From the NCBI RefSeq assembly GCF_009467795.1, contig NZ_WIAX01000001.1, positions 153,770 through 217,769 on the forward strand: a stretch of 64,000 nucleotides of DNA, in the 5' to 3' direction. This document shows, piece after piece, positions 30,497-33,853 of this stretch. How positions within the stretch are numbered: the stretch's first letter is position 1; each line of letters opens with the position of its first letter. A program made the translations under genes and the position numbers. A model generated the notes under the pieces. It was not told where the DNA came from. It searched no databases and was given only the letters and a program-made list of their open reading frames with translations. This stretch comes from Nesterenkonia halophila (GTDB lineage: Bacteria; Actinomycetota; Actinomycetes; Actinomycetales; Micrococcaceae).

Positions 30497-31801
30497 GTGA
30501 CCGACACCGAGACCCCGCCGACCGACCCCGCCGGGGAGCATGCCGAGGAGCACGTCGGCGACCGGCCCGGCCAGGAGCGCTCGCCGCTGCTGGACCGCCG
30601 CGGCGCCGTCGCCGCCGAGGCCGAGGACGCCGCCGTCGCGGCCCACTACGGCGACCCGGTGCGCGAGCAGCGTCGGCTGGAGGCCGGTCAGGCCGTCGTC
30701 GACCTCTCCCACCGCTCGGTGGTGACCGTCTCCGGCCCGGACCGGCTGTCCTGGCTGACCACGCTCTCCTCGCAGCAGGTCTCCTCGCTGGCCCCCGGCG
30801 AGTCCACCGAGCTGCTGCTGCTCGACCTCTCCGGACGCATCGAGCACGACGCCGCCGTCGTCGACGACGGCGCCACGACCTGGCTGATCACCGAGAACAC
30901 CCACGGCGGCGTGCTCGCCGCGTGGCTGGAGTCGATGAAGTTCATGCTCCAGGTCGAGATCGTCGACCGCACCGGCGACTGTGCGGTGCTCGGCTCCGTG
31001 GCCGCGCCGCCCGAGGAGCTGCCCGGCGAGGTCGTCCGCTGGCAGGACCCGTGGCCGCGGCTGGGGCCCGGAGCGGCCAGCTACGCCGCTGTCGAGGAGG
31101 CCGAGCACCCCGGGGCGGGCTGGTCCTGGCATCTGACGGTCGTCGCCCTCGAGCAGCTCGCCGCCGGCGTCGAGGCCCTGGAGACCGGAGCCGCCTGGAG
31201 CCTGGCCGGCGTCCACGCCGCCGAGGCGCTGCGCGTGGCCGCCTGGCGTCCGCGGCTGGCCCGCGAGGTCGATGAGAAGGCCATCCCGCACGAGCTGGAC
31301 CTCATCCGCACGGCGGTGCATCTGGCCAAGGGCTGCTACCGCGGCCAGGAGACCGTCGCCCGCGTGCACAACCTGGGCCATCCGCCGCGCCGGCTGGTCT
31401 TCCTGCAGCTCGACGGCAGCGAGCACACGCTGCCGGCGGTCGGCTCGGACGTGCTCGCCCCGCGCGGGGCGACGGATCCGGAGACGCTCGCCGGAGAACG
31501 GTCGGTGGGCCGGGTGACCTCCACGGCGCGGCACCACGAGATGGGGCCGATCGCGCTGGCGCTGGTCAAGCGCCGGGTCGACCCCGAGGCGCAGCTGGTC
31601 GTCCGCGATCCGAACCGCTCGTCCGCGGCGGAGCAGGGCGACGAGGCGTCGGATCGCGTCGAGACGGCCGAGGGCGCGGAGGCCGGGGAGGATCCTGCGC
31701 CGAGCTTCTACGCTGCCGCCCAGGAGATGATCGTGAAGCCCGACGCCGGCCAGGTGGTGGGCCGCCCGACGGGCGACTTCGTGCGCCCGCCGCGCCGCTG
31801 A
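30497..31801 (+). CDS. ygfZ: Folate-binding YgfZ-type iron-sulfur assembly protein
   Basis: 434 residues from GTG 30497, chosen for AGGAG 5 nt upstream; an in-frame ATG at 30446 would add 17 residues. GcvT-like folate-binding fold (VVDLSHRSVVTVSGPDRLSW, FMLQVEIVDRTGD) with the diagnostic KGCYRGQETVARVHNLGHPP, whose cysteine is essential in E. coli YgfZ. It helps repair or build Fe-S clusters with tetrahydrofolate. The C-terminal 90 residues are acidic and unconserved. A perfect 60-bp palindrome lies 49 bp downstream. Confidence 0.9.
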   Translation: MTDTETPPTDPAGEHAEEHVGDRPGQERSPLLDRRGAVAAEAEDAAVAAHYGDPVREQRRLEAGQAVVDLSHRSVVTVSGPDRLSWLTTLSSQQVSSLAPGESTELLLLDLSGRIEHDAAVVDDGATTWLITENTHGGVLAAWLESMKFMLQVEIVDRTGDCAVLGSVAAPPEELPGEVVRWQDPWPRLGPGAASYAAVEEAEHPGAGWSWHLTVVALEQLAAGVEALETGAAWSLAGVHAAEALRVAAWRPRLAREVDEKAIPHELDLIRTAVHLAKGCYRGQETVARVHNLGHPPRRLVFLQLDGSEHTLPAVGSDVLAPRGATDPETLAGERSVGRVTSTARHHEMGPIALALVKRRVDPEAQLVVRDPNRSSAAEQGDEASDRVETAEGAEAGEDPAPSFYAAAQEMIVKPDAGQVVGRPTGDFVRPPRR

Positions 31802-31849
31802 GCAGGCCCCGCCCCCAGCCCCCGCCGCCGGCGACTATGTCCCGGCTGC

Positions 31850-31909
31850 GATGACTCCGTGGGATGGGTGGGAATGCGCGCGCATTCCCACCCATCCCAC
31901 GGAGTCATC
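31850..31909. repeat. 60-bp intergenic palindrome, copy 2 (perfect)
   Basis: A perfect 30 + 30 bp palindrome with no spacer: outer arm GATGACTCCGTGG, then GATG, then GGTGGGAATGCGC and the complement. It lies between the convergent ends of ygfZ and an acetyltransferase gene. It could form a cruciform or a 60-nt RNA hairpin. Copies 1 and 3 share the outer 13 bp and the GTGGGAA core. Confidence 0.92.
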
Positions 31910-31928
31910 CTGTCGGTGGGCGCGGCTG

Positions 31929-32648
31929 TCAGGTCAGCGTGACCGTGGTGCGGGCGCCGATGTCGACGAAGCCCAGCGCGTGGGCCAGCCGACGGGAGGC
32001 CGGGGCCTCCACTGCGGCCCGCCATTGCGGGACCAGTCCGTCGACGAAGGCCTCCTCCACGGCGACGGCGCCGACGTGGGCGGCCAGCCCCCGGCCGCGA
32101 TGCGCCGGGGCGGTGAGCACCCCCAGCTCGCCGAGCAGCATCTGCTGCACGCGGCGTCCGGCAGCGGTCAGCGGGGTCCCGTCGGACTCGTCGACCAGCG
32201 TCGCGGCCCACTCGGCCGCGGGCAGCCCGGAGGCGGCGACGTCGTCGGCCGGGGAGTCCTCCAGGAGCGCGTGCACCGGCTCCGGCTCGAAGGAGATCGC
32301 GCCGGAGGCCACCGGCGAGGGCGGCACCTCGGGCGGCTCCTCGCTGCACAGCAGGAAGGTCTCGCCGGCGATGCGCGCGCCGGGGTGCTCGGCGGCGGCC
32401 AGCGCCAGCAGGCGGGTCTCGTCGGCCAGCTGCTCGTCGGGCACGGAGCGGGCGCGGTCGAGCAGCGGTTCCGGTCCGGAGAGCACGGCCCGGTCGAAGA
32501 GCCGCGTGAAGGAGAGGGACGCGGCGTCGTCGTCGACGACCTCGAGGCGCAGCCCCGGGTCGCCGCGCTCGAGGTCGAAGTCGTCGAGCTGCAGGGTGCG
32601 CGCCCAGGCCAGGCGGATGATCTGGCGGGTGTGCTCGGTCAGCGGCAT
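31929..32648 (-). CDS. GNAT N-acetyltransferase
   Basis: 239 residues from ATG 32648, which has GGAGG 2-3 nt upstream and TAGGGT 7 nt upstream. The C-terminal half is a GNAT domain: LGELGVLTAPAHRGRGLAAH gives the acetyl-CoA loop and ASRRLAHALGFVDIG the last helix and strand. The N-terminal half (LTEHTRQIIRLAWARTLQLD) is of the kind seen in two-domain actinobacterial acetyltransferases. Substrate unknown. The gene is bracketed by palindrome copies 2 and 3. Confidence 0.8.
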   Translation of the reverse strand: MPLTEHTRQIIRLAWARTLQLDDFDLERGDPGLRLEVVDDDAASLSFTRLFDRAVLSGPEPLLDRARSVPDEQLADETRLLALAAAEHPGARIAGETFLLCSEEPPEVPPSPVASGAISFEPEPVHALLEDSPADDVAASGLPAAEWAATLVDESDGTPLTAAGRRVQQMLLGELGVLTAPAHRGRGLAAHVGAVAVEEAFVDGLVPQWRAAVEAPASRRLAHALGFVDIGARTTVTLT

Positions 32649-32655
32649 GACCTCC

Positions 32656-32661
32656 ACCCTA
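32656..32661 (-). promoter_or_regulatory. -10 element TAGGGT for the bracketed acetyltransferase
   Basis: Minus-strand TAGGGT, 7 nt before ATG 32648. It lies 16 bp from palindrome copy 3, which therefore covers the -35 region. Confidence 0.45.
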
Positions 32662-32677
32662 CGCGTCCGACGCACAG

Positions 32678-32737
32678 GATGACTCCGTGGAAAGTGTGGG
32701 AACGCGCGCGCATTCCCGCACGACCCACGGAGTCATC
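32678..32737. repeat. 60-bp intergenic palindrome, copy 3
   Basis: Outer arms GATGACTCCGTGG and CCACGGAGTCATC are perfect complements; the core GTGGGAACGCGC / GCGCATTCCCGC has two mismatches and the 4-nt hinge blocks (AAAG, CGAC) do not pair fully. 5 mismatches of 30. It lies 19 bp after the pfkA stop and 30 bp before the acetyltransferase start. Confidence 0.88.
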
Positions 32738-32755: not shown

Positions 32756-33787
32756 TCAGCGGCCGAAGAGGATCTGAGCCTCCTCGTAGCGCTCGGCCGG
32801 GACCTCCTTGAGCCCGTCCAGGGCCTCGGCGAGGTCGACCTTGACGATCTCGGTGCCGCGCAGCGATGCCATGTGACCCCAGGCCTCCTCGTGCACCAGA
32901 TCCAGCGCGCGCATGCCGAAGCGCGTCGCCAGCACCCGGTCGTAGCCGGTGGGGTTGCCGCCGCGCTGGATGTGGCCCAGCGTCGTGCTGCGGGTCTCGA
33001 TGCCGGTGCGCTCCTCGATGCCTCCGGCCAGCCACTGGCCGATGCCGCCCAGCCGGGGCCGGCCGTCGGCCTCGCGGCCCTTGTCGGCGACCGCCTCCTC
33101 GGTGCCCTCCGGGATGAAGCCCTCGGCCACGACGACGAGCGGCGAGCGGCCGCGGGAGTGGACCTGCTCGACCCACTCGGTGACCTGCTCCATGCCGACG
33201 CTCTGCTCCGGGATGAGGATGGCGTGGGCGCCGGCGGCCATCCCCGAGTGCAGGGCGATCCAGCCGACGTGGCGGCCCATGACCTCGGCGACCATGCAGC
33301 GGTGGTGGGACTCGCCGGTGGTGCGCAGCCGGTCCATCGCATCGGTGGCGATGGAGATCGCGGTGTCGAAGCCGAAGGTGTAGTCGGTGGCCTTGAGATC
33401 GTTGTCGATGGTCTTCGGCACCCCGACCACCGGCAGGCCGTCGGCGGCGAGCCGGCGGGCCCCGGCGAGCGTGCCCTCGCCGCCGATGGCGATGACCGCG
33501 TCGATGGCGTGCTCGCGCATGGTCGCGGCGATGTTCTCCGCGCCGCCCTGCGGGTGCCTGTACGGGTGCGTGCGCGAGGTGCCGAGGATCGTGCCGCCGT
33601 CGCGGGAGAGGCCGCGGACGTCCTGGCGCTCCAGCGCCATGTAGTCGCCCTCGATGAGTCCGCGCCAGCCGCCGCGGAACCCGACGAACTCGTCGCCGAA
33701 GCTCTTGATGCCGTGCAGCACGGCGGACCGGATGACGGCATTGAGTCCGGGGCAGTCGCCCCCGGAGGTGAGCAGGCCGATGCGCAT
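32756..33787 (-). CDS. pfkA: 6-phosphofructokinase
   Basis: 343 residues from ATG 33787 (MRIGLLTSGGDCPGLNAVIR); a start four codons earlier is possible. Group-A PfkA: the phosphate-donor loop AIGGEGTLAGARRLA has Gly rather than Asp after GGE, which favours ATP over pyrophosphate; VPKTIDNDL carries the catalytic Asp; EVMGRHVGWIAL and GHIQRGGNPTGYDR form the sugar site. It phosphorylates fructose 6-phosphate in glycolysis. A minus-strand TAGACT (33859-33854) suggests a leader of about 60 nt. Confidence 0.95.
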   Translation of the reverse strand: MRIGLLTSGGDCPGLNAVIRSAVLHGIKSFGDEFVGFRGGWRGLIEGDYMALERQDVRGLSRDGGTILGTSRTHPYRHPQGGAENIAATMREHAIDAVIAIGGEGTLAGARRLAADGLPVVGVPKTIDNDLKATDYTFGFDTAISIATDAMDRLRTTGESHHRCMVAEVMGRHVGWIALHSGMAAGAHAILIPEQSVGMEQVTEWVEQVHSRGRSPLVVVAEGFIPEGTEEAVADKGREADGRPRLGGIGQWLAGGIEERTGIETRSTTLGHIQRGGNPTGYDRVLATRFGMRALDLVHEEAWGHMASLRGTEIVKVDLAEALDGLKEVPAERYEEAQILFGR

Positions 33788-33853
33788 GATGCAGCTCATC
33801 CTTCCTGTGTGTCGCGGGATGGGGAGCCTGACGCCGTCGGCAGGTGCGGATCC

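Follow-up and report, generated by a model that had tools for sequence, protein, structure and literature searches.

Sixty-base-pair palindromic repeats that may mark gene ends as hairpins in Nesterenkonia halophila and a sister species

We describe a family of 60-bp palindromes that may well be lineage-specific repeats kept as hairpins at the ends of genes. Judging from their sequences, they would probably act in RNA as end marks that work from either side and halt the trimming of mRNA. The family bears on how high-GC actinobacterial mRNAs get defined 3' ends, and its roughly 95 varied, covarying gene-end hairpins, in place of which sister species have another core, another hairpin or nothing, offer a natural experiment. 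Furthermore, being REP-like although no REP machinery was detected, it tests whether a RAYT is needed for the spread of such repeats.

Three copies of the palindrome in the window

The window, by which we mean the whole 64,000-nucleotide stretch of N. halophila DNA that was analyzed, holds three copies of the element. A preliminary description had given all three as exactly 60 bp long with common outer arms, and as intergenic and near stop codons, and re-reading of the sequence bore this out. Copy 1 (positions 117 to 176) lies between a forward-strand gene ending at position 101, whose stop codon is 15 bp before it, and another forward-strand gene (206 to 832). Copy 2 (31850 to 31909) sits between the converging genes 30497 to 31801 (forward) and 31929 to 32657 (reverse), with stop codons 48 and 19 bp away. 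Copy 3 (32678 to 32737) begins 18 bp after the stop codon of the reverse-strand gene 32756 to 33799, its other neighbor being the reverse-strand gene 31929 to 32657. A pattern made of the two arms gave five matches in the window, which reduce to these three places because two were hit on both strands, and had no match in any of 100 shuffled sequences.

All three copies were recognized by R1, a covariance model built from 14 copies, with E values of 1.0e-14 for copy 1 (equivalent to G000:C10:153886-153945), 4.8e-20 on both strands for copy 2 and 1.6e-16 for copy 3. Their predicted RNA folds had energies of -37.1 kcal/mol (z, -6.8), -60.2 kcal/mol (z, -13.1) and -43.2 kcal/mol (z, -8.6), respectively, and the RNA folding of six 60-mers ranged from -30.7 to -60.2 kcal/mol (z, -4.95 to -13.6). 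No known Rfam family was found at the copies at gathering score, the window giving only three tRNAs.

Copy 2 is, as had been described, a perfect 30+30 palindrome. Its left outer arm, GATGACTCCGTGG (31850 to 31862), forms pairs 1 to 13 with the right arm (31897 to 31909). The left hinge together with the first core base (31863 to 31867) faces positions 31892 to 31896, and here the letters vary within the family and the pairs are mostly kept. The left core GTGGGAA (31868 to 31874) and the right core TTCCCAC (31885 to 31891) are nearly invariant in the 93 copies aligned below, except at pair 20/41, and the hairpin centre (31875 to 31884) is variable across the family and often unpaired. On the forward strand, a C-rich stretch (31802 to 31849) leads from the stop codon to the hairpin, and a G-rich stretch (31910 to 31928) follows it where a T run would be.

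Copy number and distribution

The preliminary description had held that a family would be in doubt if a search of the genome and its relatives returned only these three copies and none in sister genomes. We searched the window's own genome (G000, a draft of 2.19 Mb, 65.5% complete) and that of the sister species Nesterenkonia sp. F (G024, a draft, 93% complete), and R1 found at least 32 places in G000 (best-strand E values up to 2.5e-6; one further match with an E value of 0.17 was dropped) and at least 63 places in G024 (E values up to 2.8e-4). Copy numbers are lower bounds, as first-pass scans scored at most 150 candidates per genome and 18 in the scan of 295 family genomes. The length was fixed at 60 bp in 30 of the 32 G000 copies, the other two being 62 bp long. 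With up to one mismatch, the 13-bp arm had 35 matches in G000, compared to none for its reversed control. A DNA uptake sequence was considered and rejected on the grounds that 32 of these 35 matches fall in full elements and that the copies are few.

When the GTDB species set, from which records near the window's genome were possibly excluded, was scanned for exact matches to both arms, Nesterenkonia sp. F alone was returned, with 16 stretches. Among the best candidates scored in the other 28 Nesterenkonia genomes, only those of G008 (two places; E values of 7e-4 and 7e-3) and G023 (one place; E value of 4e-5) matched R1, and these matches were about 70 bp long. At an E value of 0.01, 7 of 58 genomes had a match among the candidates scored, G050 and G054 being weak. 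A single 60-bp copy was present in G032, which belongs to another genus (E value of 4e-11). Scoring the best 18 candidates in each of 295 genomes of the bacterial family gave four genomes with a match, namely, G000 and, with one place each, G122, G172 and G188. By eye, the copies of G032 and G188 are alike in plan. In the openly accessible literature that was covered, we found no account of this repeat family in Nesterenkonia or Micrococcaceae.

Pairing in the hairpin

We aligned 93 copies, 30 from G000 (the two 62-bp copies were omitted) and 63 from G024, leaving out one G024 match that scored 29 of 40 (L096:1024). The letters of the arm and core were nearly fixed and those of the hinge and centre were variable. 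Of all stem cells, 88.5% were paired, a value that dropped to 35 to 46% in slid controls. Both sides had changed in 171 cells compared to 86.4 in shuffled alignments, and none of 500 shuffles reached the covariation score of the alignment, a kind of score that shared descent can inflate. Less telling was how many pairs showed a both-side change at all (14, equaled by 36 of 500 shuffles). In hinge pairs 14 to 18, both sides had changed in 24, 6, 37, 7 and 15 of the 93 copies, and the pairs were open in 13, 5, 32, 10 and 21 copies, respectively. Similarly, swaps within the arm kept pairing, C6-G55 being replaced by G-C in 10 copies, C9-G52 by G-C in 11 and U11-A50 by C-G in 26. Centre pairs 26/35 and 28/33 were unpaired in 53 and 55 of the 93 copies. 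The element pairs to its last base, with the ends GATG...CATC.

The earlier statement that the hinge blocks pair only in copy 2 is right for the three copies of the window and fails for the family, in which each hinge pair is formed in 61 to 88 of the 93 copies. Nor is a hairpin with an internal loop, which had also been proposed, supported as the general plan, since hinge pairs 14 to 18 covary both in the 93 copies and between orthologous copies.

For the latter comparison, 22 one-to-one pairs of G000 and G024 copies were hand-picked by their flanking DNA from 34 BLAST links; four two-to-one cases among the 26 ortholog relations were excluded. Over stem pairs 1 to 25 (550 cells), 83 cells showed a one-sided and 52 a two-sided change, and 44 of these 52 were paired in both species compared to 14.3 expected, which none of 2,000 permutations reached. 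In the same 22 pairs, compensated cells were not in excess in the core alone (1 cell; P = 0.78) or in the centre (7 cells; P = 0.37). One-sided changes that broke or made a pair were frequent (58 of the 550 cells), indicating that selection on single pairs is weak and that the constraint is on the whole hairpin. The hinges of the 22 pairs were no more similar than those of random copies (memory of 0.04; 95% interval, -0.11 to 0.19); memory was 0.67 at fourfold sites and 0.25 (0.16 to 0.35) in the 20 nt beside the element. We considered a faster-than-neutral turnover of the element, but because the 20 nt alongside also keep little, we do not claim that it outruns its surroundings.

Position at gene ends

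Gene positions were taken from a home-made gene caller, and the names of neighboring genes were assigned by eye. As in REPs, there are many dispersed, extragenic palindromic copies per genome, 91 of the 93 being intergenic: 45 were located between converging genes, 33 between same-strand genes and 13 between diverging genes, and the remaining 2 were inside called genes. In 504 kb of the genus, converging gaps account for 14% of the junctions of at least 60 bp and for 22% of their intergenic bases, and relative to these proportions the 45 copies represent an enrichment with P values of 5e-15 and 2e-8, respectively. Of 123 gene ends facing an element, 114 were within 60 bp of it (median, 25 bp), and between same-strand genes the element was closer to the upstream stop codon in 27 of 33 cases.

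As had been noted for the window, no T run follows the hairpin. TTT occurred within 12 nt in 1 of 123 cases, so that the U run of an intrinsic terminator is missing, and the 15 nt past the element were 50% G and 10% T over the family. The spacers before the element were 50% C and contained CCCC in 63 of 103 cases; the corresponding mean was 19 and the maximum 31 of 103 in 1,000 length-matched draws from 115 element-free gene ends. An outer stem formed by the C and G flanks was rejected, as no copy-by-copy pairing was detected (P = 0.79). The R1 matches, the covariation and the downstream composition together uphold the view of a conserved, repeated and structured element without a T run.

Hairpins of sister species

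G003 has no element at the junctions of copies 2 and 3, which indicates that the genes there do not need it. In G002, a 57-bp palindrome of unrelated sequence lies between the outer genes of this region. The junction of copy 1 harbors in G003 a 70-bp palindrome on the same plan. Indeed, the gene preceding copy 1 is followed by an element in G000 and G024 (60 bp) and in G003 and G008 (70 bp); the G008 element is separated from the next gene by some 0.7 kb of other DNA. With the 70-bp pattern, arm matches numbered 22 in G003 and 19 in G008, compared to 1 and 0 for the reversed control, and G000 and G024 had none. Six other genomes had between 1 and 3 each, numbers similar to those of their controls.

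The 70-bp family of G003 and G008 is made of the arm GWTGNCTCYGCGG, a 4-bp, mostly paired hinge, the core GGCCCTTAT and an 18-nt centre. It has the arm, the 4-bp hinge and the position at gene ends in common with the 60-bp family, whereas the core of the latter is NGTGGGAAT and its centre measures 10 nt. Thirteen copies from the two genomes had both halves recognizable. Their covariation score was reached by none of 500 shuffles; their both-side-changed pairs and pair types were not above those of shuffles (221 and 257 of 500). Twelve of the 13 were within 42 bp of a stop codon, and 7 were between converging genes.

At three further junctions where G000 has the element, G002, G003 or G008 has an unrelated long hairpin, among them a palindrome of 60 to 62 bp common to G003 and G008 (L075:6594) and one of 54 bp in G003 (L075:2094). 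We also considered, and rejected, the idea that GWTG ends characterize every long palindrome of the genus: they occurred in 16 of 68 palindromes found de novo in nine genomes, and five control motifs occurred in 1 to 10. Given these control counts, we relied only upon the 70-bp family, which was found by its own pattern.

Several smaller sets of palindromes were observed in addition. G002 has a small 71-bp family of its own (GTTGNTTGGGCG...), with three copies in 200 kb (L171:4791, L175:15057 and L176:716). Pairs of nearly identical palindromes were seen in G003 (80 bp, 1.1 kb apart; L165:10858 and L165:12010) and G022 (60 to 62 bp, 0.4 kb apart; L206:7440 and L206:7866), a similar palindrome pair lies 1.4 kb apart in G032 (L185), and two related 72-bp palindromes lie about 40 kb apart in G027 (L211 and L213).

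Proposed role and alternative explanations

The kept pairing, the position at gene ends toward either neighbor and the missing U run fit a hairpin at RNA 3' ends, at which release of the transcript would depend on an additional factor. We propose that transcription from either side would cross the C-rich stretch, enter the hairpin and stop at or past it, perhaps via Rho, as the stem might not suffice in the absence of a U run. Exonucleases would then trim back to the long stem, giving a stable 3' end, and between converging genes the stem could limit antisense RNA. That the letters of the arm and core are fixed suggests recognition by a protein or a common origin by copying; their conservation exceeds the needs of a hairpin, which speaks against a pure hairpin role. 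The 13 copies between diverging genes and the 2 in called genes are likewise odd for a 3'-end element. By analogy, the Rho step, itself a proposal, is perhaps opposed by a finding in Mycobacterium tuberculosis, where Rho depletion caused no global transcript lengthening (PMC10937400). That bacterium has few canonical terminators (PMC10937400).

Terminator-like hairpins that lack a U trail have been reported in M. tuberculosis (PMC8355165), and the Nesterenkonia elements resemble high-GC intrinsic terminators in their stable stem past a stop codon. Nevertheless, we regard it as improbable that they are ordinary U-less terminators sharing their sequence by chance. The long stems that follow stop codons, with their enrichment in converging gaps, would fit, as would the six other palindromes of the window, which also have no T run, but independent terminators are not expected to share 13-bp arms and cores in at least 95 places, and the repeated conserved letters, the fixed length and the G-rich tail set the family apart. 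No more probable is a duplex-DNA site for a symmetric chromosome-organizing or regulatory protein. It would account for the strong dyad symmetry and the letter conservation in the arm and core, but the replacement of C6-G55 by G6-C55 and the covarying hinge keep pairing and not the letters of a half-site, and the placement tracks gene ends. Somewhat unlikely, finally, is a non-autonomous MITE- or REP-like element moved in trans by a putative transposase, in which case the place and pairing of the copies would reflect target choice and purging. The many dispersed copies, the narrow distribution, the two window junctions empty in G003 and the outer arm shared with the sister family are in its favor. 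So are 3 of the 28 G024 copies with both flanks found in G000 stretches: G000 lacks a full element at these three places and has a remnant at one; absence is underestimated here, the G000 stretches compared having been chosen for carrying elements. However, the other 25 are matched by a G000 element at the corresponding position, and most must therefore be old. The preliminary description had suggested a search for a REP-type Y1 transposase, and PF01797 had no match in G000 or G024 (drafts, 65.5% and 93% complete); its single match among 30 Nesterenkonia genomes was in G006 (L129), which has no element match at an E value of 1e-4. The MITE-like character suggested there fared no better, as direct flank repeats of 1 to 9 bp were not above those of shuffled partners in the 93 copies (2-bp repeats, 23 compared to 18 expected; P = 0.07). 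No longer element with these ends was seen in G000, a draft of the kind that loses IS copies, since 11 of 11 perfect arm matches and all but 3 of 24 one-mismatch matches are in full elements.

MITEs, as well as ERIC, NEMIS and other long palindromic repeats, are palindromic, occur in tens of copies and lie near genes. The 60-bp family differs from them in the absence of target duplication, in that no related IS ends were found and in having hardly any non-palindromic middle. Arthrobacter livingstonensis belongs to the same bacterial family as Nesterenkonia. REP candidates listed by RepRanger, palindromes without a T tail, include some from Actinomycetota, among them this species, and no family of the 60-bp sequence was found in the portion of the main text considered (PMC12306157). 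REPs with GTAG or CGTC tags are dispersed extragenic palindromes near gene 3' ends, mostly in convergent and same-strand gaps; they are 20 to 40 bp long with an unpaired tag at one end, CGTC-type REPs have no dedicated transposase, and untagged REP-like families exist, M. tuberculosis being among their hosts (PMC3733652). The string "actinobacteri" is absent from that paper's text as far as it was available (PMC3733652). Our elements are likewise dispersed near 3' ends, in converging and same-strand gaps, but they are 60 or 70 bp long, symmetric to their ends and lacking the GTAG at an unpaired end that marks GTAG/RAYT REPs. Because of the shared position, the family is best called REP-like, although it is untagged and longer and no RAYT was found. 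We consider it rather unlikely that these hairpins at gene ends form a transposase-free, genus-wide system on one plan (a shared 13-bp arm and a 4-bp paired hinge), in which each lineage would swap the core in place, the position being inherited and the sequence turning over by copying between sites.

Rearrangements between copies

Pairs of elements bound rearrangements. At L180 (G000:C11:51200-60814), two copies identical at 58 of 60 positions flank 9.6 kb that are absent from G024, where one element is present. This segment contains TRAP transporter and sugar-acid genes, as named by eye, and an attachment site was rejected, as no integrase was seen in it by eye. The 1.6-kb segment between two G000 copies at L013:2959-4547 corresponds to a single copy in G024 (L122:2048). 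At L075:2154-4409, a 2.2-kb segment between two copies runs in the opposite orientation in G003 and G008 as compared with G000, and the breakpoints of this inversion are at the positions of the elements.
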